DNA of 64,000 bases from Microcaldota archaeon (GTDB lineage: Archaea; Micrarchaeota; Micrarchaeia; Anstonellales; Bilamarchaeaceae), in the NCBI GenBank assembly GCA_016212525.1, contig JACRGD010000010.1, positions 1-64,000 on the forward strand. Reading direction: 5' to 3'. The notes beneath the pieces were generated by a model. That model was given only the letters and a program-made list of their open reading frames with translations. It ran no database searches and was not told where the DNA came from. How positions within the stretch are numbered: position 1 is the stretch's first letter; each line of letters begins with the position of its first letter. A program made the translations under genes and the position numbers. Of this stretch, positions 16,335-53,838 are shown piece by piece.

Positions 16335-17099
16335 TCAGGAGGATCGATTCATAGTTTCAAACGAGTTATCCAAACGGGCCAGATGAGCAAACGGATTTCG
16401 ATCTCTAACAACAGCCATATACACCTCGTGTCGTATTGCCGAAAGATCGGGATTGGACATAGAAAATAGATCGTTTTGAGGAACGGATCTGGTATGGAGG
16501 GCAATTCCCCGAACAAGTGCAGCTGCAGGATTACCATAAGTTTGGGCCATATAATTTTCTGCACCAGTAGCGAGTTCGCCTAAACCATTGTTACGACATC
16601 GTTCAATAAACATAGATGCAACGCGTACGACTTCCCGATTTTCTGTACGATCTCCACGGGGCATAAAACGATCTGCAAATGAATCGATTGCAACTCTAGC
16701 CTCAGTATCAATAGCAGTATGTAGAAGAGTATAGCTTTGTGTAGAGCCCATTGACATAAATGATCGGACCACATTTTGAGGAGACAAATCCGCAACGACC
16801 CTGCCATTTTCTGCATGAACCAAGCCAAGGGGAAGTAAATTTCCAAGAAATTCCTGGGCACGAAGATCTGCAGCAGTAGATCCGGGATTAGAAAGTGAAG
16901 TTTGCATTGAACCGCCAGGACGAAGAGTAATAGTCGTGTTTTCTAAAGTACGTCTAAGAGCAGCAGGATCAACACCGCCAATGCGCGCAATGTCATCAAG
17001 TTGTCGTACCTGAGGAGGAGTAAGAGTTATTCTACCTTGCGCAACCTGGGATCGTTCAGAGGGAGTCATAAGTTCAGGAGGAAGCTCGGAGATTACCAT
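16335..17099 (-). CDS. Lysine-free orphan protein, 254 aa
   Basis: No family recognised and no signal peptide or membrane helix visible. The protein reads as mostly helical. It appears to contain no lysine at all but about 24 arginines, the same composition as the giant proteins at 19-45 kb. Its promoter is the palindromic TATA element at 17120-17131, which predicts a leaderless mRNA starting at the ATG at 17099. It may be a small member of the lysine-depleted set. How it would be exported, if it is, is unknown. Confidence 0.55.
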   Translation of the reverse strand: MVISELPPELMTPSERSQVAQGRITLTPPQVRQLDDIARIGGVDPAALRRTLENTTITLRPGGSMQTSLSNPGSTAADLRAQEFLGNLLPLGLVHAENGRVVADLSPQNVVRSFMSMGSTQSYTLLHTAIDTEARVAIDSFADRFMPRGDRTENREVVRVASMFIERCRNNGLGELATGAENYMAQTYGNPAAALVRGIALHTRSVPQNDLFSMSNPDLSAIRHEVYMAVVRDRNPFAHLARLDNSFETMNRSS

Positions 17100-18546: not shown

Positions 18547-19188
18547 TCAAAAGAACCGTTCGATTATTTTTGACTCGGCACGTCTAAGTGAACTTAGGAG
18601 GGCAGTCTTACTTAGACCCAGAGCCTTGGCTATTTGGCGTAAATGAGTCTTTCGTGGCCAACTATAGTAACCCATCAACCTTGCAGTGATAAGAGCAGTG
18701 CGTTCGGATGAAGTAAGAAAATCCCGAAAGGTATTTTGGCGTACGAAATGAATTTTTACATCTCCGAGCTTTTTTATTGCTTCCAAAACGCGCTCGAAAT
18801 TTTGTTTTGAGGTGCTGCCTAAAGTCCAGACCTCGCAGTCGTCTTTGTAAATAAGAGGTTTAAGATAATAACACCCGTTTTTGAATATGACTTCAGAGAG
18901 AGTCTTTACATTACCGACCTGGCGGCTTATGATATTTAGATACAGATCGGAATCGGATTGCTCTAAGATATGAACCTTTTTGATAGATGGATGCGAATTT
19001 AGATAATCGAGAATGTTTTGTGCATCAGATACGGATTTTAGACGAATGTGAAAAAGATCGATAGCTTCGCCTTTTATAAACTGCATATTGAAGCACTCAA
19101 CCGCGACAGATGGAAATCGTGAATTGAAGCCATCGCTATAGCAGCCGATATGGCGAACGCTGATTTTGAGTTCGTAACTAATTACCAT
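18547..19188 (-). CDS. Bacterio-opsin-activator-type HTH regulator
   Basis: A DNA-binding protein of 213 aa. The last 55 residues hold an HTH_10 domain: SERTALITARLMGYYSWPRKTHLRQIAKALGLSKTALLSSLRRAE, common in archaeal regulators. The N-terminal part is an alpha/beta sensor-like region without clear ligand motifs. The start codon overlaps the stop of the 2848-aa giant gene by 7 nt, so the regulator is probably translated from the same mRNA. It may control that giant gene, which is inference. Confidence 0.82.
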   Translation of the reverse strand: MVISYELKISVRHIGCYSDGFNSRFPSVAVECFNMQFIKGEAIDLFHIRLKSVSDAQNILDYLNSHPSIKKVHILEQSDSDLYLNIISRQVGNVKTLSEVIFKNGCYYLKPLIYKDDCEVWTLGSTSKQNFERVLEAIKKLGDVKIHFVRQNTFRDFLTSSERTALITARLMGYYSWPRKTHLRQIAKALGLSKTALLSSLRRAESKIIERFF

Positions 19189-22100
19189 TGGTAACCTACT
19201 GAAAGACCTAATGACCAGGGAACCGCAGTAGATGTGGGACTTATATTTGTGGGGCTGGCAAGCTGTATTGGGTCAGTACCCACACCAGTTCGGGGGTAGA
19301 AGACACTGCCATAACCAACAAATGCGCCAATATTCCATCCCGAAACACGACCGCTGCCAGTACCTTGAAGGAGACTAAAGTTCAATCCCAAACGACCTAC
19401 GAACTGGTCGCTGCGATAGTTAGTCGTAAGTCCCATCGAATCAGGCGGAGATCTTGCAGTTTCTGCACCGGCTTCAGTAAAGAAGTCCAAGGTAATGGTC
19501 CGATTATCGCTAAAGCGGGTCCGAACGTAGCTGTAACCAACTCCACCAGTGTTTCGCACATACTCATTAAAGTCTTCTTCAGTACCAGCAACAAGAGTAG
19601 AGACACCTCGCTGAGTGTGCTGATAGTAGATATATAGATATCTATCGACTCTTCCCTCAGAAGTACTTTGTTCCTGTAAACGTCGGGAAAGAGTTATCTG
19701 TCCTACATCACGCTGCTCAGTTCCAAACTGACCCCTGCGAATGAAACCACTTAGAATATATTGAATATTAGGACTATTGTAAAGGCTCAGAGCCGCACCA
19801 ACAGAGATATTACGACCTGCCTCATAAGGCGCACCAGTAGAATCAAATGGAACCTGTAAACTTCCATAGAGAGAAAATCCACGGAAAAGGGAAACTCCAT
19901 CTGCACCAGAGAAGCGCAATGAGGGTTCGTTTCTTTCATGGCCATGATCATCAACCTGGGTCGATGCAAAATCCACCCGCGAGACAAATCCATCACCAAC
20001 GGAAAAGTGTTGATTTTGCCAGATACGCAAATCTTCAATATCACCAAACTGAAGAATATATCGATCACCGGAAGCAACCCTTCGAACATAGAGAGAACGT
20101 GAAGAGGGGCCAAAGCGATCGCCCGAATGAGTAAGTAGGTGCTGGGCTAATTCTACCGAGTAGCGTCGTGCAGCATCACCAGGAACTTCGGAGGGCGATT
20201 CGATAGAGGGCAAAATGCCATAAAGAACCGCACGCATATTCCCCGAGGCAAGAGCAGGAAGATCAGAGATAGTTATGCCATCACTGGTAATGCTTGCTGA
20301 ACCATGCTCGCTAAGAACCGAAGTCCGCTCGAATCTTTGAAGGGAAACTGACTCAGAAACAGGGAGCCATTGGGCATTTGGCATTGCAAATTGTCCGTAG
20401 AATTCACCATAAAGGCCGGAGGTAGTAACAAGACCACCAGAGCCCACCGGAGCTCTTGAGGTGTCAGTGAAAGCACGAAATCCCGCGGAAGCCGCAGTAT
20501 AGCCGGTAGTGCCAGGCTGACCTGAAGTAACAAGAAGAGTCGCACCACCATTGCGATCACGAGTCGTTGTTCCAACAGTAGTAACACGCAACGTCGATTG
20601 ATCCTGATAACCACCTAGAAGCGAAACCCGAGTAGTGTCTCCATCATAAGAAAGTTGGAGCGAATATCGCTGAATATCACCATTTGCAGCCTGCTGGAAG
20701 TAGTTTCCAAGATCACGGTAGACCTGATTATACGGCTCTTGATTAGTAACTCCGTTTTGCCGCAAAAGAGCGATACGTGCTTCTGCATCCGAAACAGCCC
20801 GATCTAATTGGACCAGGGATTGAGGCAGATATTGTACATCTCCTAAAAGTCCAAATCGCATTGCACGCAAGGCAACAGTAGCGGTTGCATAAGTACCATT
20901 GGTATCAGAGCTGCCAAAAGCGGCTCGAGAGAGATCTTGTAAAAGAGTCAGAGAAACATACATGCTTTGCGCTCGTGCTGCATTTCTTCTCCAATAATAT
21001 CCATTTGCAAGAAGCATATCGACATTGTGTGAAGTGTCAGGAGTTGACATTACATCCAAAAGTCGTCTTCCCACATCGATCGTGGCATATTCACCAGTAA
21101 AGCCCCAGCCCTCAGTTATGGTATCAGTAGGCCTATTTTCTCGCCGATAAGTTGCACCACCCCTAAAGCCACCAGGTGTCGAGGATACGATCGTGCGCAG
21201 TTCCCATGAAGAGGGTCGGTAATGTTCTCTTGGATTGTTTGGATTGACACCTGGAATTCCATAGCTGCCAATAACAAATTCAAGACCGATTCCCGCTCCG
21301 CCAATACCGCCTGAGCCAACACTGGTAACCGTAGTAGGGCCAGTGCGATTTACATCAAGAGCTGAAGAAGTTCTAAGTATCCCAACTACCAACATCCTAG
21401 AGCGATCCTGACCAGTTCCATCTTCCCAAGTATAACCTCCGGCAACTGCAGCGTCAAGGAACGCAGGATCAAGTGTTCGTACAGTACCAGTAGCAGGCAC
21501 ATCAGTACGTCTTGGAGTGTGTGCAGCTGCGGCAACTAAAATATCTCTAAGAGAACCATTTGGAATTGCTGCTCCAACTGCAAGACCATTAAAGCCGGCC
21601 ATTGGTGCGGAATTCGGTTCGCCAGAAGCAAAACCAGATCCCAGGAATTGAGTTGCGGCAGTAAGTCTTCCGCCTAAAGTTGAAGTTTGTGCATAGAGGT
21701 AATTTCTCATCAAAGTTGTGAAGCTCGCTCTGTCCCGTCCAACTGTCCCGGTTGCATAGTCCTGACCTAATGAAATGCGATAGATATCACCATTTCTTCG
21801 AACCCAGTATAGTTCTTCCTGAACTTCACCAGTTGTTCCGCCATGAGTCCGACCTGATGCATCTGGAGGTACAGGACGCTCGGTGTATCCGCCACCAGCA
21901 ACCGCGATTAAATCAGCACCATCAGTGGCATTAGTATTACCCCTATGAAGAACCCGAACTAAAACATCATCACCCTCACCAGCGCGAACGAAGCTGCGAA
22001 GGAATTGCTGGAAGGTGTGTGTATTTGTACCAGTTCTTTGGCCGGAAACCGAACCAACCGGAGCGTTGGGCATCGATTGATCAGTAAGGTCGGAAGTAGC

Positions 22101-25100
22101 AACAGATCCGGTTCCCGTAACATCCAATCTATGAATTTGTAAACCACGAGTAACCCTAACGCCACCACCAGTGAGTCGGGCATCGTAAGAATAGGTACCA
22201 GTTGAACTGTCATAAACCACACGATTTGGATCAGTAGGCGAATTTCGAGTTGTACCAGAACCACTACCAGTAAATGAACCTTGGGCACGAAGTGAACCAG
22301 TTGGAGTAAGATAAGAATAGATCAAGCCTCCGCCAGCAGACCAGGAAGTGGCCTCAGAAACTGCACCGGCGTCTCCAGTAGTACGTGTTCCACCAGGAGA
22401 ATTACCAAAGGCAGCAGCGTTGAAAGTGTGTGAAAGCGCAACATTTGAATATCTAGTAGGCGGACGCCCAATCAAACGAGCCAGATACGGAACAACCTGA
22501 GCAGCCGCTAGTCCCTGATTTAGTCTTGCTGAAACAGGAACATTAGGAGCACCGATAAGAGGGTGTTGCGGGTCGAGGAATCGAGAAACGTTTCGCCACC
22601 CGGTCGCAGCACCACTGGAAACTGGAATTCCTCCATAGGGAATTGAGCCGATGCTAGTAGGCATATTTGCCCCGGCCTGAGGCATAAGCAGTCCAAGAGG
22701 AGGAGTTAACTGAGGGACAAAATTACTGCGGCCTGAAAGCACAGTGTCAGAAAGATTTGGCTGCCTTAAACGAAATGCATTTGGATCAGCATCCGAACCA
22801 ACAGCTTCCTGAGGGTGAAGAGGCGAATTTTGGAGAATTCGACCAAGCAGTGCATTTTGATCAGTACCAGAAACCACGCCCGAAGAAGCAGAATCGTGAA
22901 GACGTCTAAAGACATCGATGAAATGGGCAAGCATTTCATCATTTGAGAAATTCATCTGCCCGGATTCGGCCATCTGATAATAGCTGGTCGCTGCACCAAT
23001 TAAGGTTGCAAGACCTGCTTCGAATGCCTGCGCATCCCGGGAAACAGTAATTAAACCCGGAAGTGCCTGAGTCAAAAATGGATCGAGCAGACGCGGATCA
23101 AGCCGATAGACCTGGTAAATGGCACGGAACATTGCAGAACGAACAGAAGCCTGCTCACCCAAAACATACGCAGATGCAATGCTAGTGGCAAGACCACCCA
23201 TTTCAAGACCATGGAAAGTGTTGAGAACCTGGACAAGCACCTGTGCCTGCTGATCCATACGGGAAACATCGACACCACGAGCCGATGCCTGTGTACGTTC
23301 AGTTCCAGTTAAACGATATGCAGCATCTCCAAAATCAGAATTTGCAAGATCCTGGAAATATGCATTACCCCGATCGATTAGCATTTGTGCAAATGGAGCT
23401 TCTCGCAAAATTTGCACCAATTCTTCGGCAGTAAAACTAAATGCCGCAAGAGCTTCTGGAGATCCTCTTGCAACACGAAGCCGATCAGCTATCGGAGCAG
23501 GGAATTGATCCACATTAATAGTTCCTGCATTAACAAGATCAAGCAGAGTAGTTGTGATTGCTGGAAGATTAACAACCTGTCTTAAGAGAAGATCATCATC
23601 ACCAAAGAGTCTCCGGTATCCGGCAACTGCATTAGCGAAAGCGCGTGCGACAGATTGTGCATCGGAAGCAGTTCTAAGGCTGATTGATGAACGCAAACTA
23701 TTTACTACCCCAGTAGCCCGATCTGAGACATATCTAAAACCAGTCCAGAAATTTAGTCTGCGGTTTTCGCGCGAGTTTGAAAACAGATCGGCGAGCTCGG
23801 CATTGGTTTGCGCAGAGCAGGAATCGAGTCCCTGCGAAGGAACATTTTCGAGCGGTTGTTGGTGGGATTCGACATAGGCAACAAATCGATCACCATAGAC
23901 AAATCTCAGATCTGAGAGTGCATGCTGCCGTGCGGTTTCAAATTCAGCACGCTGCTGGGCATTGGCATTTCTTGGAGGTTGAGTATTAAAAGCCTCGAGA
24001 ACTTCTGACACGGCTGCGGCAGTCCGGTCTCTTGAGATCTGAACTCTTTGCTCGGGAGCACGCTGTGCAAATGCATCGGAAAGCTGCTCATATAAAGAGG
24101 AATTGGAAGTTGCAAGAGCAGCAAATCTTTGGGGAACATCAGAAGCTCCAGAAGTTACAAATTCCAGAGATGCAAGATTCCTTCGGATAATATTGACAAA
24201 ATCTGAACCAAATCGCCCTTCTAGGACACCGATATCATGCTCACGAGCCAGGTTAAATTGAGTAACTGCAGCTTCGTTTGCACCTGCTGGAGGAGATCTC
24301 TGCAAAACTTCACAGACAGACCTAACATTAGTTACATCCAGATCGCCACGACGGGCTTGTGTGGATCGGCCCGCACGAAGAACAAAATTATAGAGCGCAG
24401 CCTGGCCAGTAGTTGGATCATGGTGAGATCTTAAAACCGCAATAATAATGTCTTCAAATAATGCAGCTTGTTGAGGATGAGGACCATTAGCCAATTGATC
24501 GTGGCGGGCCATCAGATCAGCAAGACTTAGATTCGGAAGTGGAGTAACAAATGCAAGATTGGGAGATGCACTGGTTCCAGTTGGAACTGGAGAAACAGTT
24601 GAAGAACCAGAAACACCAGAGACATCAGGCTGAACGCCACGTTCGACCAGACTGATAAATCGATATGCTGCAGAGATAGCGGCATCGACATTATCAGGTT
24701 CAAGCAAAACATCTTCAATAGAATTGAGTTGAGTATTTACTGCGGCAATAGAAGTTCCGGCAGAAACAAGACCAGTTCGAATTGATTCGCGCACGCGGGC
24801 AAGCTCTTCGCTCTGGCGCTCGACCAATCGCCTCATTCGAGCAAGACCGGGAACACTCCCGACCGTGTCTTCAAGAACATCGAATCTTCTCAGTAGTCTG
24901 CCGGCACGGTCCAAAAGACGAGTGCACCGTTGATTAAGTTCATTCTCCTGATCACTTAAATGATCCAGAACAGTAGTTGCTTCTGAAGAAGGCCTGAATC
25001 TGGTAGAAACAGAAGTGTAGAAACCAGAACCAAAAATAACCGCAGTAGCAACTCTTAGATTACGGGAATCGTTGACCATCCCATAGGCAGTAGCCATTGC

Positions 25101-27728
25101 AACAGTAAGGGCACTTGGGGAGTAGAGATATAACAGTCGCCTTAGGGCAGAGGCTTCTGATTCAGCAGCAGGACGGGCAGAGGCAGGAGTTCTTGGAGAG
25201 GGACCATGTAATCTCTGGATTATTTCTGCCTCCACTTCATCGACATTTGTAGTAACCCACCCCAAATTAGAGCCATTTGCGGCAACAAAGGCAGCAACAT
25301 TTGGAGGAACCCGGATTCCGCTATTAGATCGGGCATCGATTAGAGCCTGAGCAAGAAGCCGAGGCGAGAAACCTGTGGCTTCGCAAAGCGAATATGCGGT
25401 AGAGCGAGCTTCTGCAGAACCAAGAGTCGCAGAAATATCATCCACACTTGCAACAGCAAACTGTGCAAAATCACCCAAATGAGCATAAACAAAACCAACA
25501 AGCTGCCCTGGATCGACACTCGTTATTGGGGGAGAATTAGCAAGTAAAGACTGACGAACACCAACAATAGCCAAATCCCTTGCGGCTAAAAGTTCGCCCG
25601 CAGCGGCATAGGTCTGCGCAAAGGCAGCAGCATTTTCGGGAGTTATTCCATGTTCACGAAGCTGCTGAAGTTGATATGCATGAACAATCGGAGCAAGAGT
25701 CGAATCATTTCGTGAAACACGATTCATTATTTGTTGTTCTGTTGCAGGAATATCTTCTCCATTAACCCAACCAAGAGAACCGATATTTTCTCTTGCATAC
25801 GCAACTAGAGGAGGAGACAAACCTGCAGGAAGATCAGTACCGCTAGTCGCATTTGCACGAACTGCAGCAACTACCCGAACCAGTTCACGGGTAAGTTGAG
25901 TCGGAGACATGGCAGTAGTATGCAATTGACCAGAAGGATCAGTAAGCATATTTGTCTGGGTTTGGCTATCAAGAGCTGCAAACCAGGATAGCTGATCATG
26001 ATTTTCAGTAACAAAATCAAGTGCATCTGCAGAGGGAGCACGTGCAACGGCTGCGTGCCGTGCGAGAAGAAGGGCCCCATAAACAGTTGATACGTTTGGG
26101 AGTAGATTTGGCGAAGGAGTTTGCGGTGTTTGAGTAGTAGCACCACTGGGATGGGGATTCACTGATTGTCTTGATCCGCCAAATCGATCACGAAGCAAAG
26201 CAGCAAAAGGCACCAAATCATCCATGGCATTGAGCCGGGCCCGAGTTAAGGTAGGGACAAATAGAGGCAGTAATTGAGCATAGTTTCTCTGGACAAAATC
26301 GACCATCTCCGCACCAAAGCGTTCAGTAACCTGGGCAATATCAGTGCCGGGAGAAGAAAGAGCGATGAAAACTTGTCTTAATGCTATTGCCTGATAGCTT
26401 CGATCCAGAGCACCTACGACCGAACGGGCATCGTCGTTTTGTGCAAAAGTTGAATTGAAATGACGGGCAACTAGTTCATCGTAGTACTGGCGGGCAGTGG
26501 TTCGATCACCCGAAGCACCAACTGAAATACCATAGGGACCTTCGGCATTTCGCTCACGGTGGAAAGGCTCGGAGGTAAGTTGTTCTAAAGTCGAAAGATC
26601 AGTTTCGCCATGGGTGAAGAGACGCTCGAGTATAGAAACAGTAACACGTGCACGCGATTCGACATAAAATCGCAAAACTTGCTCGACAAAATCATTGCCA
26701 AGACCGCCCTGATCTGCTGGTCTTCTTAGATCGGATAAGGATTCTGGATCAGAACCACCACGGAAGGGAACTCCTGCAACTGCCGAAAATACGCGAGTAA
26801 TCCATCCGAGTCTAATCTGAGCAGAAACCACCGGACGAGTACCATCTTCGTTTGCAGGCCGGGACGCCACATAACGATCCACGGCTTGAAGAAGGGGAAG
26901 AAGAGCTGCATTTTGACCGGTGAGGTTAGAGCCAAACTCCGAAGAGAAAGTATTTGTAAAATCAAGATTGTCATGATTAAGTGAATATAAGTTTGTAAGA
27001 GTCCGCAGATAAGAAAAATCTCCAGTTAGAAGGAACCTGCGCGCAGTATCGATGGCAATGCGTGCCTGTTCGATCGGCCTCTCACGATGAAGATAATCTA
27101 CAAGAGCAGGAGGATATTGATTTCTTAGCGCAACCAAATCTGCATCCGGATCTGCAACTGCAGAACGAACAGCTCTAACAGTATCGATAAAATCAAAAAC
27201 AGAATTAGGAGAAAGGAATCGAAGTAGTTGATCTACAATATGTCGGGTGGCTGGCGAATCATAAGCATCAACAACCGAACGATAATGAGGATCGGTCGAA
27301 CCTGAAGAGTTGAATGCAGATAGGAAGGATGCCCGGAAATACGGATCCGTACCAAGGGTAGATGTACCAACCCGGATAGCGAGAATTCGCTGGTATTCAT
27401 TCCAACTTTCAGTACTACCAGTCGAAATATAAGTTCGAACTGCAGATGCTGCATCTCGAGCATAAGATTCTTGCTGGCTGCGATTTTCAGGTGCAAAAAG
27501 AAGTTGGCCCATAGCACTTCTAACTCCAGTGTTCTTTATATTTGTTACGTCAGGGGTTAAAACATAGGAAGCAAGGGCAACTGGAAGTGCAAGAAGAACC
27601 TTAAAAAACCGGGACTTTGAACCACGGGCAGTTTCTGCTGCAGAATGAACAGCTCGCCTAGCAGCCTCTGCGGCACGATCAATCACACGCGCATGAATCT
27701 TATTTCCATCTGGACGAATTGAGTTCAT
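19182..27728 (-). CDS. Giant membrane-anchored surface protein, 2848 aa, lysine-free outside
   Basis: No family recognised. The ATG at 27728 is preferred because GGGGGGTT lies just upstream. An in-frame ATG at 27761 is possible. Residues 1-39 are basic. A hydrophobic helix spans about 40-58 (FFKVLLALPVALASYVL). Residues 60-1700 read as helical modules with a degenerate motif (F/V-V-x-x-N-x-x-L-x-W/F-V) seen about eight times. Thr/Pro-rich linkers lie near 527 and 1047, and a coiled coil near 925-1005. The last 1000 residues are rich in alternating beta strands and end in GLSVGYQW, an aromatic end as in outer-membrane barrels. I find no lysine after residue 65. The next gene, an HTH regulator, overlaps it. 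Confidence 0.8.
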   Translation of the reverse strand: MNSIRPDGNKIHARVIDRAAEAARRAVHSAAETARGSKSRFFKVLLALPVALASYVLTPDVTNIKNTGVRSAMGQLLFAPENRSQQESYARDAASAVRTYISTGSTESWNEYQRILAIRVGTSTLGTDPYFRASFLSAFNSSGSTDPHYRSVVDAYDSPATRHIVDQLLRFLSPNSVFDFIDTVRAVRSAVADPDADLVALRNQYPPALVDYLHRERPIEQARIAIDTARRFLLTGDFSYLRTLTNLYSLNHDNLDFTNTFSSEFGSNLTGQNAALLPLLQAVDRYVASRPANEDGTRPVVSAQIRLGWITRVFSAVAGVPFRGGSDPESLSDLRRPADQGGLGNDFVEQVLRFYVESRARVTVSILERLFTHGETDLSTLEQLTSEPFHRERNAEGPYGISVGASGDRTTARQYYDELVARHFNSTFAQNDDARSVVGALDRSYQAIALRQVFIALSSPGTDIAQVTERFGAEMVDFVQRNYAQLLPLFVPTLTRARLNAMDDLVPFAALLRDRFGGSRQSVNPHPSGATTQTPQTPSPNLLPNVSTVYGALLLARHAAVARAPSADALDFVTENHDQLSWFAALDSQTQTNMLTDPSGQLHTTAMSPTQLTRELVRVVAAVRANATSGTDLPAGLSPPLVAYARENIGSLGWVNGEDIPATEQQIMNRVSRNDSTLAPIVHAYQLQQLREHGITPENAAAFAQTYAAAGELLAARDLAIVGVRQSLLANSPPITSVDPGQLVGFVYAHLGDFAQFAVASVDDISATLGSAEARSTAYSLCEATGFSPRLLAQALIDARSNSGIRVPPNVAAFVAANGSNLGWVTTNVDEVEAEIIQRLHGPSPRTPASARPAAESEASALRRLLYLYSPSALTVAMATAYGMVNDSRNLRVATAVIFGSGFYTSVSTRFRPSSEATTVLDHLSDQENELNQRCTRLLDRAGRLLRRFDVLEDTVGSVPGLARMRRLVERQSEELARVRESIRTGLVSAGTSIAAVNTQLNSIEDVLLEPDNVDAAISAAYRFISLVERGVQPDVSGVSGSSTVSPVPTGTSASPNLAFVTPLPNLSLADLMARHDQLANGPHPQQAALFEDIIIAVLRSHHDPTTGQAALYNFVLRAGRSTQARRGDLDVTNVRSVCEVLQRSPPAGANEAAVTQFNLAREHDIGVLEGRFGSDFVNIIRRNLASLEFVTSGASDVPQRFAALATSNSSLYEQLSDAFAQRAPEQRVQISRDRTAAAVSEVLEAFNTQPPRNANAQQRAEFETARQHALSDLRFVYGDRFVAYVESHQQPLENVPSQGLDSCSAQTNAELADLFSNSRENRRLNFWTGFRYVSDRATGVVNSLRSSISLRTASDAQSVARAFANAVAGYRRLFGDDDLLLRQVVNLPAITTTLLDLVNAGTINVDQFPAPIADRLRVARGSPEALAAFSFTAEELVQILREAPFAQMLIDRGNAYFQDLANSDFGDAAYRLTGTERTQASARGVDVSRMDQQAQVLVQVLNTFHGLEMGGLATSIASAYVLGEQASVRSAMFRAIYQVYRLDPRLLDPFLTQALPGLITVSRDAQAFEAGLATLIGAATSYYQMAESGQMNFSNDEMLAHFIDVFRRLHDSASSGVVSGTDQNALLGRILQNSPLHPQEAVGSDADPNAFRLRQPNLSDTVLSGRSNFVPQLTPPLGLLMPQAGANMPTSIGSIPYGGIPVSSGAATGWRNVSRFLDPQHPLIGAPNVPVSARLNQGLAAAQVVPYLARLIGRPPTRYSNVALSHTFNAAAFGNSPGGTRTTGDAGAVSEATSWSAGGGLIYSYLTPTGSLRAQGSFTGSGSGTTRNSPTDPNRVVYDSSTGTYSYDARLTGGGVRVTRGLQIHRLDVTGTGSVATSDLTDQSMPNAPVGSVSGQRTGTNTHTFQQFLRSFVRAGEGDDVLVRVLHRGNTNATDGADLIAVAGGGYTERPVPPDASGRTHGGTTGEVQEELYWVRRNGDIYRISLGQDYATGTVGRDRASFTTLMRNYLYAQTSTLGGRLTAATQFLGSGFASGEPNSAPMAGFNGLAVGAAIPNGSLRDILVAAAAHTPRRTDVPATGTVRTLDPAFLDAAVAGGYTWEDGTGQDRSRMLVVGILRTSSALDVNRTGPTTVTSVGSGGIGGAGIGLEFVIGSYGIPGVNPNNPREHYRPSSWELRTIVSSTPGGFRGGATYRRENRPTDTITEGWGFTGEYATIDVGRRLLDVMSTPDTSHNVDMLLANGYYWRRNAARAQSMYVSLTLLQDLSRAAFGSSDTNGTYATATVALRAMRFGLLGDVQYLPQSLVQLDRAVSDAEARIALLRQNGVTNQEPYNQVYRDLGNYFQQAANGDIQRYSLQLSYDGDTTRVSLLGGYQDQSTLRVTTVGTTTRDRNGGATLLVTSGQPGTTGYTAASAGFRAFTDTSRAPVGSGGLVTTSGLYGEFYGQFAMPNAQWLPVSESVSLQRFERTSVLSEHGSASITSDGITISDLPALASGNMRAVLYGILPSIESPSEVPGDAARRYSVELAQHLLTHSGDRFGPSSRSLYVRRVASGDRYILQFGDIEDLRIWQNQHFSVGDGFVSRVDFASTQVDDHGHERNEPSLRFSGADGVSLFRGFSLYGSLQVPFDSTGAPYEAGRNISVGAALSLYNSPNIQYILSGFIRRGQFGTEQRDVGQITLSRRLQEQSTSEGRVDRYLYIYYQHTQRGVSTLVAGTEEDFNEYVRNTGGVGYSYVRTRFSDNRTITLDFFTEAGAETARSPPDSMGLTTNYRSDQFVGRLGLNFSLLQGTGSGRVSGWNIGAFVGYGSVFYPRTGVGTDPIQLASPTNISPTSTAVPWSLGLSVGYQW

Positions 27729-28685: not shown

Positions 28686-30278
28686 CTATCTCAGCGGCAT
28701 TACTAGAGTGCCACCTGAATTGGCCCAAATATTCCGGTTTGCATCTGGGTTTGCCAATCTCCAGCCAAGAACATTAAGCCCATAGGCAATGAAAGAGGTG
28801 CGAATACTTGGATCATTGAAATCAGGCGATGGAGCAACTCTAAGTCTTTGGGCGAAAAGAGCAGTAAGATCGGTTGAAAAGGTTCGCTGGGCAGGAGTAC
28901 TACTTCCCGAAACAGGAGGCAGATACGATGCAACAAACTGACGCAGAATATCGATTTTCTGTGCATCAGTAGTTGCCGTAAGATTAGAAGATTGAACAAA
29001 TCGCCTAAATGCATTTGGTAAAACGCCAGTTGTCGCAGCATTAGTCCAGGAATCATAAAGTAGAGGAAGAGCTGCGTTGATGTTTGTCTGACTTACAGTT
29101 CCTGAAGTATAATCAACAACTCTAGAAGGATTACCCGAATTGACAATGTCCATTATATTTTGAAAGCGGGGATCGATTGATGGAGCCTGAATACCCGCAA
29201 GCGCAATTGCATTTGGGATCGCACCACGAACTGAAGTCTCACGCTCGGCATGATTAAACACTGAGAGGAAAAGAGCACACGCTGCAACAAAATTGAAATC
29301 AACCGGGGCATTAAGGTTCGCAAAAGCTGGATCTGCAAAAGTTGGAATTCCAGCAGATACAAGAAGATGATTTAGAGGTTGTGAGGAGTTCCCGCCCGCA
29401 GTAACTTGGGTCAAATAACGAAGGAGCATCGCAGCCTCAGCAATCACCGGGGGAGACGCACCAGCAAGAGAGGAATGTGTATTTAGGTAAGCCGCAAGAT
29501 TAGAGAAACGATGCGTTGGATCTGCCGCTTGAGTAGTAGTTGAAGAAAGGTAGGAGAGGAAACCGGGAAGAGTAAGAAATTGATTAAAGATCGCCTGAAT
29601 AAGTGGACTTTGAGAGGTGGGAGTTAGAATTAAATTGATACTGTCTCGGCCGTTAAATAAGCGCGCTATATCTGGAACTGGATCGGAGGCAGCTGCAATA
29701 GCAGTAAGAGTTCTGGAGATGTCATCTATATTCCCAAAAGCAATACGAGTTGGAACTGCATCAGCCACAGCAGCATCACGAACCACAGAGGGATCATGCA
29801 CACCAGCATCACGAGCTGGTTGTGGTCTGGGATTTGGACGAGGAGAACCAGCTGAGCCGACTTGGGAAGCAGGAACTGGACGAGGGACAGGAGTTGGAGA
29901 AGGTACGGCCGATACAACAGAAGAAGTGCGGCCAGAACCAGTGGAACCACCAACATTAGGTCCAGCAGTGCGAAGAGAAGGATCTGCGTTTGTGATTTGA
30001 TCACGCATTCTAGTCAATTGACCAAAAGATGAACTGAGATCCCCACGAAGATTAATCATCAACGGATTAAAACCATTACGAGTAGCATTTAAGTCGAAGA
30101 AAGAGCCATTGATCCGACGGATCGCAGCGAGCAGAGAACGTTCAGTAAGAAGATCTGCAGAGGTAATTGGACCTGAAACTCCGTTCACAATTAAGGTATG
30201 CCTAGCCACATTAAACGTTATTCTAAGAGATACACTATCAGTACCAGAACCTTCAGAATGATCATAGATATTAACCAT
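28686..30278 (-). CDS. Lysine-depleted orphan protein, 530 aa
   Basis: No family recognised. The ATG at 30278 is fixed by AGGTGA, which is formed by the last codons and stop of the 3192-aa gene. An N-terminal beta-rich domain (residues 1-50, VSLRITFNVARHTLIVNGV) precedes helices. A Pro-rich linker lies near residues 125-155, followed by an alpha-helical C-terminal part of about 360 residues. I find only one lysine (in DAQKID). There is no signal peptide. The stop-start arrangement makes its translation depend on the 3192-aa gene, which suggests a joint product or complex. Confidence 0.7.
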   Translation of the reverse strand: MVNIYDHSEGSGTDSVSLRITFNVARHTLIVNGVSGPITSADLLTERSLLAAIRRINGSFFDLNATRNGFNPLMINLRGDLSSSFGQLTRMRDQITNADPSLRTAGPNVGGSTGSGRTSSVVSAVPSPTPVPRPVPASQVGSAGSPRPNPRPQPARDAGVHDPSVVRDAAVADAVPTRIAFGNIDDISRTLTAIAAASDPVPDIARLFNGRDSINLILTPTSQSPLIQAIFNQFLTLPGFLSYLSSTTTQAADPTHRFSNLAAYLNTHSSLAGASPPVIAEAAMLLRYLTQVTAGGNSSQPLNHLLVSAGIPTFADPAFANLNAPVDFNFVAACALFLSVFNHAERETSVRGAIPNAIALAGIQAPSIDPRFQNIMDIVNSGNPSRVVDYTSGTVSQTNINAALPLLYDSWTNAATTGVLPNAFRRFVQSSNLTATTDAQKIDILRQFVASYLPPVSGSSTPAQRTFSTDLTALFAQRLRVAPSPDFNDPSIRTSFIAYGLNVLGWRLANPDANRNIWANSGGTLVMPLR

Positions 30279-30283
30279 AAAAA

Positions 30284-33200
30284 TCACCTTGGAACAGGAT
30301 TAAGAATATTCCTCAGAGCTTCTCGAACAAAGGATGCAAAATTGACGTACGAGGGCTCAGTGGAATCTGCAGAGATGTTGAAAGTTATGTGGGTGGAATC
30401 ACCCTGAGCTACGCCAGTTATCCCACAGCCAGCGAAGGTAGCCATAGTGGGACGGCCTAAAGCCTGCATACGAGCTTGCTCAAATATAATCGCATAGAGA
30501 CTTCTCAACTGCTCTGCGGAAAGAGTAGTGGGATATGCATGATGCGTTGGACTGCTACCACTCACACCCACGATAAGAGTTCTGTGCGCAGGAACAAATG
30601 TTGATAGAAGACCAGACAAAGACGCAGAATTTAATTGATCACAAACCGCCTTAAATCGACCAAAATCAATTGAAGCACCTGGAACTGCAGAATCACGCAA
30701 GAACTGCTGAGTTGGCGCATCAAATCGGGAAAATATTGATCGATTTCTAACAATAAAGGAGCAGACCTGCTGCATATCCTGAGGACTAACGCTATTTGCC
30801 ACAGTAACCTGATGATTTTCAAGTGCAATTCGGACAACATCCGCGACAGTGTTACGAACGGCTGGGGGAACAGTGTGTGCAATAAAGTCATCATTAATGT
30901 GACTAGAGTAATAATCCCGAAGCAGAAGATTTTCCCGATTCGGAGGATTCGGAACACGAATCGGAGGAATACCACCGTTAACCGCAGGTAGAACTTCTAT
31001 CTGGAATGCCGGTTCTATTAAAGGCTGGCCATCAGGACCAGTAAGATTTCTTGGATCACCATGTGGAAGCAAGTCCCGATAAGGAGGACGAGTGGCATTA
31101 GCAGGAACATTTGGTGGAGTGGCGGTTTGGGCAACAGGCGCAACTGCAGTACGATTAGTCCACCATCCATTATCGATGAAGTCATATCTTAATGGATAAG
31201 AATTGAGAATATTTGGTGAATTGTTAGATCTTTGACTGGTTCCTGCATCCGGAGTTTGAGTAGGAGAAGATGGACCTGAGAAGAGCAGGTTGGGAGTTGG
31301 AAGTGCAGTGAAAGTCCTAAACTCAGAACCAAGCGAAATGGCCCGGAGCAGTCCAGCAAGAGATGCAGGAGGACGATGAGTTGCATTGTATTCTCTCATA
31401 CTGGCAGCGATAGTGGCACGATTTTCTTGGATCCATGGGATAAGACCGGCAGGAGCACCTGGAGTCAACTGGGAGAAGGTAACTGCGAAGAGAGCAAGTG
31501 CACTATCTGCATAGCTAAGTCCCATGTCAGTAAGGATAGCAGGTGCAATTACTACACGTCGGCCCATTGTATTGATAAAGTGTTGCTCAAGCGTAGTTGG
31601 AAGAGAGGAAGGAATTGGTTCTGGAGCACGAATCGAGCGGCCAAGTGCAGCTAGATCAGTAGTTGGATCTGCGATTTGCCTGGCGAGATCAGTAATCTGG
31701 GCATTGGTACCAAAGAGCCGCTCAGTAGATGCGATAGGGAAGAAATTGAGCCGGGCCATTGCGTTGGCATCATGGGAATACGTATTTAGCAGAGGAAGGA
31801 AAACTTCAGTTCGGAAAGTAGCGTCTGTACTTGCCCGCAAATCCATGGCATGAAGGAAAGTATTTGAATTGACCGGATTCGTGAGAGTTGCAACGCGTTG
31901 AGTTCGGGTAGTATCGGAAAGAACAGCGGACATCGCAGTGTTAAAAGTGGCTCTGGCTGTTGCGAGCCGGGTTTCCAGGGAATCAACAGCAGTGGCATTA
32001 GCCCGCTCAGTAACAACCGTAGCACGATACGTAGAAATGACAGGAGTGAATTCTGATTCTCGGGTTTTTATTGCATGCGCAGCATCAGAAACTGAAGAAA
32101 TTGGAAGTCTTCCATGCATAACAGAATCCCAAAGATATGCAAATGTTTCTGGCCGATATGCAAAGTGATGAGTTAGTTCGACTAATTCACGAGTGTCGGT
32201 AATACCGCAGCGCCTAAAGAAGGTTTCGACCATCATTTCGGCATGGGTGTAGAGCAAGCCATTTTGGCGCATTACAGTTTCGTGAATATTAAATACATCA
32301 ACCAGGTTTAGGGGCTGTGCACGACCATTAACAGAACCCCTAACATAATGAGAAACTGCCTGATTTGCGAATTCAATTACAGGATTGACATGATTCGTAT
32401 ATGCATCAGTGCCATGATAACCCAGAAGACGGGCTAATTGCACTCGCGCAAGATGAATAACTCGACGATCTGGAACATCAGAAGACAATGAGAGAAGTTC
32501 TCTTAGGTTTGCAATGGCCCGTCGCTCAGCCTCGGTTGGAACCGGATCGCGATGGGCAACCAAATCGACCATGTGGTTTGCTTCATAATTTGCAAGGTTC
32601 CCCAGCGCAGGGAGGAACAAACGATTAACACGATCAAGATTTCCATTGGCTAAAACAGATCTGCCGATATCCAGATATTGATTGGCGGCTTCAGATCTGC
32701 GATAGATATTGATCGTAGTATTACGCGAATCATCAGTACCACCACCTAAAATTTCTTGAACACGATCTGCTGAAGTAGGAAATAAGACCGCAGCATTTGG
32801 TCCCTCAAGAGGCAGAACATTCATGCGCCGAACCAATTCATCATAATAATTATCTACCTGAGAAGTTCTTTGCTCACGCGGACGAACGTGAACTCCACCA
32901 AAGAATCCGATCTCCGGATCTAGAACGAAGTGAGCATTGTCCCGAGATAAAACGATATCGGATAGATCACCAGGACGACCTGCAGTTTCAGCATAAGAAG
33001 CTGCGACCAGAGTATCTAAATGATTTTCTCGAAGATACGTTCGGATGTTCAATGGCACATTAGTAAAGGGAATATGAGGCGAGTAGTTAGTGGCATTCAG
33101 AACACCTAGGGACAGTGCAACGGCCTCCAAAGCAAATTGAGCCCAGAACCGACCAGTAGCCAAAGGATCAAGAGAACCGACTTCAGGATACCTCGAAACA

Positions 33201-36200
33201 CCATGACGTGCAAGCCAACCTTCACGATCACCTTCAAATCGGCCAATAAGGCGGGCAACTCCCCGACCAAGAGCACTTCGGTTCCAAACAGCAGGAACAG
33301 CATACCGAACAAGACCACGACCAACAGTCCAGGCAGCAGTATATTCTAAAGGAACACCCGGTACAACCGGGAACCAAGACCATAGACGTCCAAGGAACCC
33401 AGGGACCTGGCCAATTCTGAAAGACGAATCGCTAGTTACACTACCAGGTCGCTGGGCAAGCAATCTTAGTCGCTCCACAACAGGAGCAACTTCAGTACTG
33501 GCAGTAAGAGCATTTTGATAAGCACGAATTACATTAACCAATGGATTGTCCGGAACAGTAACATTTGAATTTCGTGCAGCTGCAGCCTCAGTAATTAAAT
33601 TAGGACGTCTTTGGAGTTCGGCTCCGAAATTTGCATCTTCAGATACAGCAACCCGGAATTCGGGGGATGAGAGAGCAGTAGCGAGTGCCGCTTCAGCAGT
33701 CTGACCCCTTCCAATTTCCCTACGAACAACGTTATTAAGGACATTAAGAACGGAAGTTTCTCGAGCAGAAGGGGTAAAGGTAGCAGTAGAAAAACCGGTT
33801 GATCCCGAGGGCGGAGTCACTAGTCGGACAACTGGAAGAAGAGGATTTGGAGGTGGAGTAGGTTGATTTCGACCAGTCGGTGTAGGTCTGCCAGATAATG
33901 CTTCAGGAAGCAAATTAGGATTTGAAGCAAATGCATCAGGATAAGCAGCACGTGCAGCATCGGCAAATTCTGGTCGGCGCATAGCAGCGGAAATAGAGCT
34001 ATTGTTTTCTCGAGCGATGGCTACGAGACGGTTCGCAAGAGTAACCTGCTCAGCAGTAAGACCCGCAGGATTAAAAGTCGTAATGGATTGACCAGAAGTT
34101 CCAGTAACGACTCCCGAGAGAACCGTTTGCAATCGGGCATTTGCAGCAGATTGTTCCGTGGTCAATACAGTCAAGCCGCCATCGGTTGGCAGCGCAGTGG
34201 CCAGATGCAACGCAAGACCAGCGCGATTTCGAGCAGCTACTGTTCGGGCATCAGGACTAGTAAGATTAAGACCAAGAACACTCTCAACACGACCAAAAAT
34301 ATCAGTACCAGCGGGAACCGATCGTGCAAGTGCAGTCAAAAGAGTCTGAAGGTGAGTATTATCAGGAGCCCATACCGGGTCGCTTTGTCTTTGTGTACGC
34401 CAGGCCTCAAAACCCCCACGCTGAGAACCTATGAAATCACGAATAGTTCGCAAGGTACCCGCATCGGCACCGTGGGAGTCAGCATTGTGAAGAAGATCAT
34501 AACCCACATTAGTAAGTGCCAATCGTTCGAGAGCAAGATAATTGGGATCAGTTGCAATGAGACCGGAAAATCGCCGTCCGGCAACGTGTGGAGACGCGGC
34601 GGTCCATCGGGCATAAAGTGCACGCATCATATCGAGTACATGAGTCTGATTTTCAGGATTAACTGTGGCGGTTCGCTCACCCAATCGAACAAGACCTTCT
34701 TCATTTAGGGCAGTCATAGCTTCAGTAGTAGGAAGAGCACCTTCACGATTTGCACCAGTAGCAGTTGCTGTGCCCTCGCGATTAAAGACACCTCGAACTC
34801 TAGCCCTCCATCCAGGACGAGGAGCACCAGTCGGATTACCTGCATTCACAGGAACAGGAGTACCACCGCTCGCATCACCAGGAACCCCAGAACCGCCGGT
34901 CGGTTCAGCCATCATAACCGGCTGGCCACCATTTAGAAGATCAACCGGGCCAAATCGAGGACCGGCAACAGTCAATGATCCGCCCTCGCCAGTACTGGTC
35001 ATTGCGAGAACCTGTTGCTGGGGCTCAGTGGATCTTGGTCCGCTCACCTGTTCCATCAAAGATCGCAGAATCGGATGAACCTGCCTCATACCCATACGAA
35101 TGTTGTGCTGTGCAAGTCCATCAGCAGCCTCGGCAACTGCACGCATAACGATCGCTGAATCAGTTGGAGAAACACCCAATTGCGCCAACATTGAAGCAGC
35201 AGTCGAACGATCGGCAGTTGCAAGAGCAGTAAATAGTTGCCTAACTCGAGGATCTAAGCCAGCCATTCTGGCTTCAATGTTGGTTCGGGATGATGCAGTA
35301 GCACCAAATAAATCGAGAACCAGGTTAAATGCATCTGCCGGAGTTGGTATAGTAAATGCAGCTGGAGCAGGACGACCACGAGGACCAGTTGGCGTTGGTT
35401 CCGGTTCAGGAATCATATTATCGTTTGCAGGAGTCGCGTTTCGTAGTGCATCAAAACTGAGTTGAAGATTTTGTTCGGTTCCAGGTTCGACAACAGGTTC
35501 AGAAACAGGAGAAGCGCCAGGGGCACGACGTGCAATTCTGCCACCTACATGAACTGCAAGTGGGAAAATTGCCATACCAAAGTCGAAAACTGCGCTGGAT
35601 CGATCTCCAGCAGCCCAGGCAGAAGCACCAGAAATAATTCCATTGCCAGACATTGCCAGTCCAAAGCCAGCCTCGGCAGTTCGTGCAAGTTGTGCAGTTC
35701 GAACTAATCTTAGTGCACGCGCGGTAAATGCAGCCTCGGAAATTGTTTCATCTGCTACAAGTACACGAAGTGCAAGAATAGAAGTTCGCGCAACGGTTGA
35801 AAGGACAGGTGGAACAAATGCCAAACCGGCCATCATAAGACCGGAAGCGGAAATTGTACCAGTTGCCCGATATTCAGTGGCCACTTGTTCAAGAGCCATT
35901 GAAGCGAACATAGTGCTGCCAACCCACATTCCCCAGATCGGAACAAATGAAATGGCAGTCGCAAGAAGCGTAGTAGTGACGGTTGAAGCGAATTGAGCAT
36001 GCTGAACATATTCAAGAGATTGATGAATCACACGATTTGCTTGGGCAACATTGCCGGCATCGATCGCAGTTAGTGCCGAGTCCTGGAATGTAAAAAGCCG
36101 TGCCTGTGCACTTGCATCAACTCTGGATCCGTAAGCATTAAGACCGAAAATTGCAGCATGCCTTAAGTTTGAGAGTTGCTCGACTCTAGAAACATTATCG

Positions 36201-39200
36201 AATCTAGTACGAAGTTCTGCGGCAGATGATGTTTGATCAGCAGGTAAACTAGCAAATATAGAACCAGTGGCCAGAGACCTAAACGCATCGATCTGTTGTT
36301 GACGATATTGTGTATGGGCAGAAGAATGGTATTCCTCATTAAGCTCAAGCTCACTAACTCGGGCAAGTGAAACGTTTGGACCTGCTTCACCATAACGGAC
36401 ACCTGGAATAGTAGTCGGACCTACACGGATCCGATGGACAATAAGCGCAGAGTCAAGGTTGTTTACTGCTTCAGCGTAGTAGTTCACTGCTAAATCAGAC
36501 ATTCGAGCGCATTCTTGTGCACTCACTGCCGGACGCGCGAGTTCATGGAATACAGTTAAGAGAGCAGCAGACGCATTTTCCAACCTACCCCTCGCGTAAG
36601 TCAAATGATCCAACGTCTGAGCAGTAACATCACCACGACCAGTTCGAACGGCTTGGATATCCTGCTCAACTTGAGCATGGAGATTATGAGTGGCCCGATA
36701 GGAAAGAAGAGCATTTCGGAAGATAGCAACCTGTGCAGTATATTGAGAAATATCATTACCTAAAGTAACAAGAGCAGATTGATCTGAGGATGGAGACACT
36801 TCGCGAAGTGCCTGCTCGATCTGGATTCTTCTGCGATCTAGAGCCAAAAAAGCTTCACCTAGTTCGCGAGGAACAGTTTCTTCGGGAATTGCAGGAACAG
36901 TAACGCGCTCATTAAGAGTTTGTGTTCGGGTTCGGGTCATCGAAGGCGGAACAATACCGCCACCGGAAGGACCACTTCCACCTGAACCGCCACCGCCAAT
37001 ACGAGATGCTACAATATAAGAGTAATCATGTCTTTCTTCTTCAGACCGATCAAGAGCTCGAGTTCGTACAAATGCAACAGGATCAGCTTCAAAGTCAGTA
37101 CGTGCAGAACCATAACTTCCAAAATGACCAGAGAGAAGTTGGCCCAGGGAATTTCTCGCAAGACCGGTAGCAGACCTATAAGCAGCATCAGCACTAGTAA
37201 ACCAGGTCCTAAAGGAATCGCGAACAGAAGCCTCGGACCGATCGGCCAAAATTCCATTTATATTAGACTGGAGTCTTTGATCCAGGGCCTGTGCAATGCG
37301 ATTGAAGTCTGCGATATCACCGGATTGCGCAGCGGCATTAAGACGAATTAATAGACCCCTGATGAAACCGTTTGAAAGATCAGTAACGCCAAAAGCAGCG
37401 GCATCAGAAGCAGAGGGAGGGTGCTGCAAATCATAGCGGAAAATATTATCTGGATGTGAATGATCGGTAGTAGTATCTGTTAGATAGAACGTCTCGGATC
37501 GAGTTGCACCCGAGCCAGTAGTCGTCTGAACGGACACAACCCCAGGAACAGAAGCACCGGCAAATGCAAGACGACCCTCGAATCTATCGATAGTTTGTCG
37601 GGCATGAAGAATCATTGCAGCAACAGCACGTGAGGATGCAAGACTCGAATCAACTGCAGAAAGTGCAGAAGACGAACCTGGAGCAAACGAAGTTGGATCA
37701 GATTGTGAAAGGACAGAAAGTGAAGCGAGCAAACGAGTGCTTACTGCAGGAGGCAGCGTAACTCGACCAGTAAGAACACCAACAGATTCCAAAGACCGGT
37801 TCAAAAGGAGTGCGACAAACATGGCACGCGAGAGCGCAGATGCGGGATCTGAAGTATCCGCAGTAATTATACGGACTCGATCCAGAACGCCATCGAAAGT
37901 CTGGCGAACCGGACCATGAAGAGATGAGACGCGCGCAGTAAGTGAGGCGGCAGACACTGCATTGAACTGATTTAGTCGGAGAGTAAGCTCGGCAGCGAAT
38001 CGATCCTGAACACTTGCCTGCGTAGCAGGGGTGGTTGCAGATGCCATTTCACCGATGATTCGGACAGCACCTGAAAGATCAATTCCATTAAGTGAGACAA
38101 TTTGACCATTTCTTTGTTGGCCATGAGTGTCAACTAAACCCAGAATAACGCTGAGCATCTGAAGAGTTTTTTCAGAGCGCAGATGATCGTTTGGGTTTGT
38201 GCTTGTGCAAAGAGTTCCAACAGTCGCAAGAACTGCAGAAACTGCCCGTCGCAAGGGAGCAAGATCACCAGAAACCCGCTCAAGCCGGGCAGCTAGTGCA
38301 TCAGCAGTTGCAGAGAGAGATCGCATTCTCAATCCGAGAGAAAATTGCTCTGGTGCACCGTTCTCGCCACGTAGTTCCATATCGAGGCCGGACTCCATCT
38401 GAGAGCGACCTGTAAAGGAACCCACGACTCCGGAAATTGCAGAGAAATAATGAAGAACCATGGACAAAAGTCGTCGTGAACCCTCAAAATCGCCATCAAG
38501 GAGGCGTTGCCGGATGGTTGCATCTGCAGTTCTGAGCCGTGCAGGCAGGGAATTGCGGGGAGATCGTGCCAACTGCCGCTCCAGAGGTGCAAGCTGATGA
38601 TCTACATAAAGAGCCTCAAGAACATAGGAAAATTGTTCGAACGTATTGCGGGAAACCCGTGCTCCCTGGGCAATCGAAATGGCCTGTCGCATTACATCGG
38701 CAGGAATTGTAACACCCTGATCAAGAAGATCAGCAACGGTAACTGCAAGACGGGCAGAGCCAAGACGAGTCGGAGAGGAGGAATGTAAGAGAGTCAAAGC
38801 AGCAGAACCGAACCAGGCAGCAGAACCTACAGAATAGTGCGAACCAGCTAAACCACTATGAGATAGAGCAGATGCAGTTATGCCAGAAGCATCATCTGAA
38901 ATCGAAAGGGCATCATGGCCAGAAATTTCTTCATAGTTTTGAACCAGAACTGCGACTTCACGCAAGTGTCGTGAGTTTGCCGGATCTTCGGTTAATGCAC
39001 GACTAAGATTCATGGCCACATCACGGATGCGCAGATATTGCTCGCGCATTGCCAGAGCAACGATATTCTGGGCAATATCAGAATCTATTCTTGCAGCAAC
39101 TGCACTAAGAAGTGAGCCACTAAAGAAAACACCTAAATCATGATTGAATGAATAAAGCGAAGCGGAAAAGTTATCTAGGCGTCTTGAATCGCCGCGCGCG

Positions 39201-44556: not shown

Positions 44557-44612
44557 AACATCCACACCTCAAAAGTCTATGAATATATAATGATAAATTG
44601 TGCTTAATTGTG

Positions 44613-52380: not shown

Positions 52381-53838
52381 ATGATGATCAGTAGGCAGAA
52401 GAAAGGTCTTAGGGGAGAAATTTTAAGAGTTGCCATAGTCAGCGCAGCAGTAGCTTTTTCCCAGTTTCATAGTGGATGTTCAGAGCATGCAGGAGTAGGA
52501 TCATCAAAAAACCTTGATGCCGGAAAAGTAAATCGGCAAGAGTATACAGCCGCAGATGCTCGAGCGAGAATTGCGGAAACATCAATAGCCACTCAAAGAA
52601 TATTTTCAAGAGAAGATCAGACAATACTAAATTACACATCAATGCGAGAAGTAAAACAACTATTAGAACAACATACGCAAGTGAGAGACGCACTCATAGA
52701 CCTACTAGAAGTATATGATGCAAGACTAGAATATAGAGAACTTAGGAGAAGAATAGATGGAGTTCTGGGCGCCAGACCTTTTCCAGCAGATCAATTCACT
52801 CAGAATGGAACAGAGGCACATTTTCAGATTACCAAGGCATGGATAGTCAATCTTGCACATGGATTATGGGTCGAAAAGAATGGACTGGTTTCTTGGTCTT
52901 TAGAGAATTATACGCAAGCACAAATAAGATTCCTCTTTCCTACTACAGATCGTTCGGAAAATCAATATCCAATAGCCATACTAAGCAGGAACAATTTTTC
53001 TTATGAGGATAATGATCCACACAAACTATTTCGTATTGGATGGGCAATTAGGGAGACTTCGGCCATCGCAACTGCAGAAAAGACAGTAGAGTGGGTAAGT
53101 AGAAATTTTTTTCATGTTTATAGAGATGGTAATGAAGACTTTGAATACAGAACCCTCTACCCAAATGGAATACCCAGAATTGAAGAATTGTTTAGAGAGA
53201 GGGCCATATTTGGATGCTGGGATTCTAGCTCTCTTTCCGCCACAGTTCTAAGGTCAGTAAACATACCTGCAATATCAGTGCAATCAAATTACATACATCC
53301 AAATAACGGAGGTGCATATTCAGGAATGGACGAGTACCACGGAGGCCTCATGATACCCCACATCGATCGATATGCAAATGGGGACTGGTTGTTTAGCGCA
53401 GGCCAGAGAGGAAATCTGATTTTGTACCCCCACGCAGAATTTGTTCGATATATCCCGTATGTAAGAGATGAAGCCATGAGGGTGGGAGGGGACCCTGGAC
53501 CTCGGTTCTACAATCCAAATCCAGATAATTTTGGCGTTACGATTCGTAGAAGAGCAACAAGTAGTTCATTGTACATAGATGGATTGTTTGTTTTAGATGA
53601 AGAGAGGAGACGCATGGCGGGTTCTAATGCCCCGTATGTTGTAACAAATCAAGCCTTTGATAATAGAGACATAAGACAACCCAGACCAAATTTTTCACTA
53701 ATGATAAGAGACATTGGAGAATTTGATCCACAGGTGAGAGTCGATAGGACTTTTCCCTACATGGCAACGGTCAGCGGGACATCAGTAAGAATAAAAACCC
53801 TTGAACAGATCCTTGATCAGACTCCGATAAGATTTTAA
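52381..53838 (+). CDS. Transglutaminase-like lipoprotein, 485 aa
   Basis: Residues 1-18 are basic, followed by a short hydrophobic stretch and FHSGC near residue 33, which resembles a lipoprotein cleavage site. Near residues 272-300, FGCWDSSSLSATVLRSVNIPAISVQS matches the transglutaminase/cysteine-protease core with the nucleophile Cys. The His of EYHGGLMIPHID about 40 residues later and a following Asp would complete the triad. Few lysines remain in the exterior part. It likely acts on protein or peptide crosslinks outside the cell. The substrate is unknown, and peptidoglycan of a neighbour is one possibility. Confidence 0.75.
   Translation: MMISRQKKGLRGEILRVAIVSAAVAFSQFHSGCSEHAGVGSSKNLDAGKVNRQEYTAADARARIAETSIATQRIFSREDQTILNYTSMREVKQLLEQHTQVRDALIDLLEVYDARLEYRELRRRIDGVLGARPFPADQFTQNGTEAHFQITKAWIVNLAHGLWVEKNGLVSWSLENYTQAQIRFLFPTTDRSENQYPIAILSRNNFSYEDNDPHKLFRIGWAIRETSAIATAEKTVEWVSRNFFHVYRDGNEDFEYRTLYPNGIPRIEELFRERAIFGCWDSSSLSATVLRSVNIPAISVQSNYIHPNNGGAYSGMDEYHGGLMIPHIDRYANGDWLFSAGQRGNLILYPHAEFVRYIPYVRDEAMRVGGDPGPRFYNPNPDNFGVTIRRRATSSSLYIDGLFVLDEERRRMAGSNAPYVVTNQAFDNRDIRQPRPNFSLMIRDIGEFDPQVRVDRTFPYMATVSGTSVRIKTLEQILDQTPIRF

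Follow-up and report, generated by a model that had tools for sequence, protein, structure and literature searches.

Protein C, a giant encoded in a 64,000-nucleotide stretch of DNA (the window) from a DPANN archaeon of the Micrarchaeota/Iainarchaeum type (G000; genome of 1.47 Mb in 10 contigs), is devoid of lysine throughout its mature part, and it is one of many proteins that are lysine-depleted in some genomes of its genus and normal in others. The lysine loss is the result of selection on the protein, which targets lysine itself and not positive charge. The trait is a property of the genome and has changed state at least five times within one genus; exempt from the loss are signal peptides and, in a membrane protein, the half presumed to be cytoplasmic. 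The best explanation, credited with slightly less than an even chance of being correct, is that lysine removal is selected for by a putative agent which is directed at lysine or amines and is encountered outside the cell, most probably on or inside a partner. A preliminary description of the window had singled out C, but did not foresee that many proteins are depleted, that the trait is on or off among congeners, or that the S-layer protein and most other exports are spared.

The lysines of C, read on the minus strand, lie solely at residues 10, 38, 43 and 65, where the preliminary description had placed them, and the final 2783 residues contain none. At the 7.4% lysine of sampled cytoplasmic-type ORFs in the same genome approximately 205 would be expected, in line with the earlier estimate of about 200, and the binomial probability of finding no lysine in the ~2775 residues of mature C is ~1e-93 at 7.4% lysine and ~1e-59 at 4.8%. 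Arginine makes up 8.4% of C, and Asp plus Glu 9.5%. The frame, read from an ATG at 27728 (a longer ATG start at 27761 is possible), is uninterrupted, and in sister genomes related ORFs of 2790-3070 aa likewise run through without a break. AAA and AAG codons are scarce in frame only. In the depleted genes of G000 they account for 0.25% in frame versus 3.0% and 3.8% in the remaining sense frames and 3.8-6.3% in the antisense frames, and in those of the congener G011 for 0.18% versus 7.9% and 7.1% in the other frames. GC3 is lower in depleted genes (0.31) than in ordinary genes (0.37). The loss of these codons in frame only, together with the low GC3, indicates selection at the protein level; the preliminary description had remarked that base composition should favour lysine codons. 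Coordinates are collected in Table 1.

Table 1. Lysine-depleted and partly depleted proteins of the window, with their parts
Feature	Position	Strand	Description
358-aa protein with N-terminal hydrophobic segment	5958..7034	-	partly depleted, K 1.4%, R 7.5%
Lysine-free 254-aa protein	16335..17099	-	0 K, R 9.8%, no signal peptide
Protein C, lysine-free giant	19182..27728	-	2848 aa; ORF read 27728..19182
C-terminal domain of C, residues ~2617-2848	19185..19880	-	predicted long-strand antiparallel beta-barrel, aromatic last residue
Mature part of C	19185..27506	-	2774 aa, zero lysine; helical repeats, then beta-rich C-terminal third
Residue 1087 of C (Gln), alignment column 1468	24468..24470	-	sole mature position with K in all nine other aligned orthologues
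Signal peptide of C, residues 1-74	27507..27728	-	all four lysines; motif SAMG↓Q, cleavage site inferred by rule
Protein B	28686..30287	-	533 aa with a single lysine; lacks a signal peptide; 9 congeners have an orthologue
Protein A	30284..39862	-	3192 aa with three lysines; lacks a signal peptide; four-base overlap with B
1377-aa protein upstream of A	40432..44565	-	K 6.5% before sole candidate membrane segment, 0.8% after
Candidate membrane segment of 1377-aa protein, residues 628-646, GFASAALPLAWWIPLAVAF	42628..42684	-	Kyte-Doolittle mean 1.59, moderate hydrophobicity only
485-aa lipobox-bearing exported protein	52381..53838	+	partly depleted, K 2.1%, R 9.9%
417-aa protein, signal peptide ending ARA↓Q	59912..61165	+	2/3 lysines inside signal peptide

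The four lysines had been located around a membrane anchor. Their location stands, but what had been taken for an anchor has the look of a long signal peptide that is cleaved off, since the orthologues carry a cleavage-like motif and the lysines end there. Ten aligned C orthologues have in common the motif N-x-A-M-A↓Q-P after the hydrophobic stretch, reading S-A-M-G↓Q at residue 74 in C, and the conserved N-terminal hydrophobic stretch with an A-x-A↓Q motif would by rule make this a Sec-type signal peptide; signal peptides, topology and compartments were assigned throughout by simple rules and not by trained predictors. When nine depleted proteins with signal peptides from G000 and G011 are pooled with six depleted C orthologues, with rule-set cleavage sites, lysine accounts for 33 of 842 residues (3.9%) in signal peptides versus 41 of 23382 (0.175%) in mature parts (Fisher p 1e-28). 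In the 1377-aa protein upstream of A, lysine is absent past residue 1000 and residue 614 is the best change point, with a logL gain of 19.3 and a Fisher p of 1.4e-8. A cause at the level of translation, such as an attack on tRNA-Lys, was rejected, since lysine persists in signal peptides and over the N-terminal half of the 1377-aa protein.

The 1636-aa protein adjoining C in G009 (L024:183-5090) has the same N-I-K/N...M-A-Q-P signal motif, with 7.2% lysine in its first 125 residues and 0.2% thereafter. Moreover, the inferred mature N-termini of depleted signal-bearing proteins are mostly Gln after A-x-A (~11/15, by eye), examples being 19182-27728 and 59912-61165 in the window and L059:11896-12546, L061:10739-11806, L103, L107 and L092 elsewhere. 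N-terminal Gln can cyclise to pyroglutamate, which removes the alpha-amine as well. Gln after A-x-A is also seen in normal genomes, and so does not track the lysine trait.

Cytoplasmic proteins are unaffected, as had been stated for those near C, and cytoplasmic-type ORFs have a mean lysine content of 7.4% in G000 and 7.0% in G011, unlike the lysine loss of the halophile type, which involves the whole proteome. In composition statistics drawn from sampled stretches of the genomes, lysine-poor, arginine-rich ORFs of at least 200 aa number 16 of 256 in G000 (~410 kb sampled) and 9 of 119 in G011. Sampled stretches of G010, G015 and two further genera contained none, and the few lysine-poor ORFs in G013 and G014 look spurious, arising from GC-rich DNA. 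Depleted proteins include a subtilase and transglutaminase-like, SGNH-linked, beta-rich or beta-barrel and helical-repeat proteins, some of them without signal peptides. In the comparison of exported with cytoplasmic proteins that had been proposed, lysine loss across the whole secretome was rejected, as most exported proteins retain lysine. In G000 the S-layer protein (4.3% lysine), ZnuA (3.9%), a class III signal (pilin-like) protein (6.3%) and most lipoproteins are spared, which suggests that the loss marks a destination and not export as such. Two depleted signal-bearing proteins have a lipobox, and the boundary between spared and depleted exports is thus not sharp. The transglutaminase-like exported family (L061:10739-11806, relatives L091-L107), a putative enzyme found in at least ten genomes of the genus, contains invariant Cys129, His168 and Asp183 together with TPR repeats.

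C has relatives in 11 further genomes of its genus, against 0/82 tested genomes outside it. Within the genus, where the congener genomes are incomplete MAGs, C is depleted in G000, G001, G005, G006, G009, G011, G016 and a fragment from G008 (lysine 0.1-0.4%, arginine 8-11%), whereas it is normal in G007, G013, G014 and G015 (lysine 4.4-5.6%, arginine 5-7%); neighbouring A and B share the lysine state of C. Mature C contains on average 0.15% lysine in depleted versus 5.10% in normal orthologues, and 9.81% versus 5.93% arginine. The sum of the two is nearly equal (9.97% versus 11.03%), in support of the earlier remark that positive charge itself is not avoided, and other residues, Cys and His included, are similar. 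The proposal that orthologues would keep the depletion despite divergence is borne out in several lineages at ~24% identity, but not in the four genomes with normal C; where it is kept, the long lysine-free stretch is beyond chance and persists despite sequence divergence, as in lysine deserts. For the transglutaminase-like family, the depleted genomes are G000 (with three paralogues), G006, G009, G011 and G016 and the normal ones G002, G004, G007, G012, G013 and G014, and the state of the family is that of C in 8/8 genomes in which both were measured. On a species tree of one gene (SMC), at least five changes of state fall within the genus and a single depleted clade is rejected (p-AU 5.7e-5). 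The SMC gene of G006 (L115, G006:C31:14616-17972) is interrupted by a single in-frame TGA, which probably reflects either an error of assembly or a pseudogene.

Normal C orthologues share lysine positions poorly (18%, versus 34% for arginine), which would fit independent regain of lysine without proving it. The lysine of alignment column 1468, in the context PEKQ/DKQ, is kept in six depleted orthologues as well as in normal ones, and lysine has thus been purged where dispensable and retained at one site that is probably functional.

C, which is encoded together with A and B, is probably secreted and made of helical repeats, with a predicted membrane beta-barrel at its C-terminus. The motif YGxxFVxxVxxNxxxLxWL recurs along it. 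An AF2 model of the last 355 aa has a mean pLDDT of 64, with strands mostly at 70-87, and an earlier 1089-aa structure model was mostly below 50. The best 50 Foldseek matches of the C-terminus in the PDB are all beta-barrel proteins of outer membranes or organelles, or the complexes that assemble them, but with low scores (E >0.001, TM at most ~0.4). C resembles outer-membrane beta-barrels and type V autotransporters in its signal peptide, large N-terminal part, predicted C-terminal barrel and aromatic end. It differs from them in being archaeal, in an N-terminal part that is helical and not a beta-helix, and in that Omp85/BamA (PF01103) was found in none of 17 genomes although control genomes were positive; the barrel model is of moderate confidence. 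That such a barrel sits in an outer membrane, or in that of a partner, is to be taken as a lead and not a result. No Pfam match at the curated cut-off was obtained for any of 10 C orthologues, no relative was present among PDB sequences, no enzymatic domain was recognised, and a viral origin was rejected, there being no relative in viral_contigs. Searches of A, B and C against Pfam, NCBIfam and PDB sequences gave no known family except GDSL in some B, two of the congener B orthologues scanned having a GDSL/SGNH hydrolase domain. Relatives of A and B adjoin C in congeners, and B occurs in syntenic clusters with or without the inserted hydrolase domain (window 28686-30287; L029:1623-4151; L031:3210-6206).

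Under the external-agent explanation, selection would strip lysine alone from proteins bound for one particular extracytoplasmic place, where the putative agent would target the side chain of lysine, whether by conjugating to it, cleaving there or cross-linking it. Removal of lysine would hide the proteins from the agent, with arginine preserving charge, and A and B, which lack signal peptides, would meet the same agent as C on the assumption that they are exported. A partner cell is favoured as the destination on two counts: the surface proteins that the archaeon retains on its own envelope keep their lysine, and the repeated switching would follow from changes of partner. The preliminary description had raised escape both from the archaeon's own tagging and from another lysine-targeting chemistry outside the cell; the former is not upheld, and lysine-directed tagging or chemistry outside the cell, a partner cell included, would be the best reading. 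If so, lysine content alone would mark those proteins of an uncultivated symbiont that reach one outside compartment, even without a signal peptide, congeners that differ in the trait would provide a natural experiment in which to search for the agent, and an undescribed lysine-directed pressure between archaea, or between archaea and other microbes, would be indicated. A further step, possible although rather unlikely, is a reversible, destination-specific 'lysine-free secretome', in which DPANN archaea purge lysine from every protein meant for one destination and a partner there attacks lysine. Each switch would then mark the move to another partner, with lysine content serving as a readable address label of host-directed proteins.

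It is unlikely that the archaeon itself makes the lysine-directed agent, be it a tagging enzyme, a Lys-specific protease or a cross-linker, and has depleted the proteins exposed to it. Candidates are at hand, since proteasome genes are present in 17/17 genomes and a full E1/ThiF gene in 15/17, the same organisms export a transglutaminase-like family whose Cys-His-Asp triad is invariant, and some genomes have subtilases. Nevertheless, no full-length E1/ThiF was found in G005 or G011, which are depleted sister genomes, proteasome genes do not separate depleted from normal genomes, and lysines are tolerated in signal peptides, all of which argue against the archaeon's own SAMP tagging; E2 was not found in the genomes searched, by a search without a responding positive control. 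Five depleted genomes lack subtilases and four normal ones have them, with no correlation. The transglutaminase-like triad is intact in normal genomes, and the family was not found in depleted G001 and G008. None of the candidates tested (GC, E1, subtilase, transglutaminase-like family, lysA, proteasome) tracks the trait.

A preference for arginine, in which Arg-carboxylate networks or polyanion binding favour it over lysine, would suit the 7-17% arginine of depleted proteins, but is improbable given that total lysine plus arginine is nearly that of normal orthologues, that unrelated folds are affected and that the loss stops at signal peptides. Arginine is the main replacement for lysine in depleted C, but many residues take its place and arginine does so only 23-32% of the time. 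Nutrient sparing, by which a lysine auxotroph would economise on lysine in proteins lost outside, is very unlikely. No lysA, the one lysine-biosynthesis gene considered, was found in 17 genomes and the exempt signal peptides can be recycled, but lysA is equally missing from normal genomes, the S-layer protein keeps its lysine, and the replacement arginine is richer in nitrogen than lysine. An artefact or an effect of base composition or codon bias has a negligible probability, with AAR common off frame, low GC3, open frames in 12 genomes, and a gene GC that ranges from 0.40 to 0.66 where lysine is depleted but is ~0.57-0.60 in G013, where lysine is normal.

Lysine deserts have been described in ubiquitin-proteasome components and in pupylating bacteria, where they are read as protection from lysine tagging (PMC10665810, PMC10169902). 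Long conserved lysine-free stretches are common to those deserts and to the proteins described here. The known deserts are, however, mostly intracellular and near the cell's own tagging machinery, whereas here the loss follows export, involves whole mature proteins of up to 2774 aa, is archaeal and switches among congeners. Ubiquitin-type tagging by the cell itself does not fit as the cause of such a desert, E1/ThiF being missing in two depleted genomes, and a literature search for 'lysine deserts' with 'archaea' found no paper joining both in the library searched. Lysine-poor catalytic chains of toxins escape ER-associated degradation. They are similar in that lysine is removed, arginine is kept and the protein would act in or on another cell. 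In toxins, however, a single enzymatic chain is involved, in contrast to dozens of proteins of unrelated folds here, there is no sequence relationship, and the toxins are delivered into the cytosol of another cell and are active there.

Two further membrane or exported proteins were observed. An acidic exported protein of 359 aa in G011 (L065:4563-5639) contains 29% Asp plus Glu, no arginine and two lysines. In the window, an HGSNAT-type acetyltransferase membrane protein (PF07786, E 1e-53) is encoded at 12635-13336, in a DPANN archaeon.
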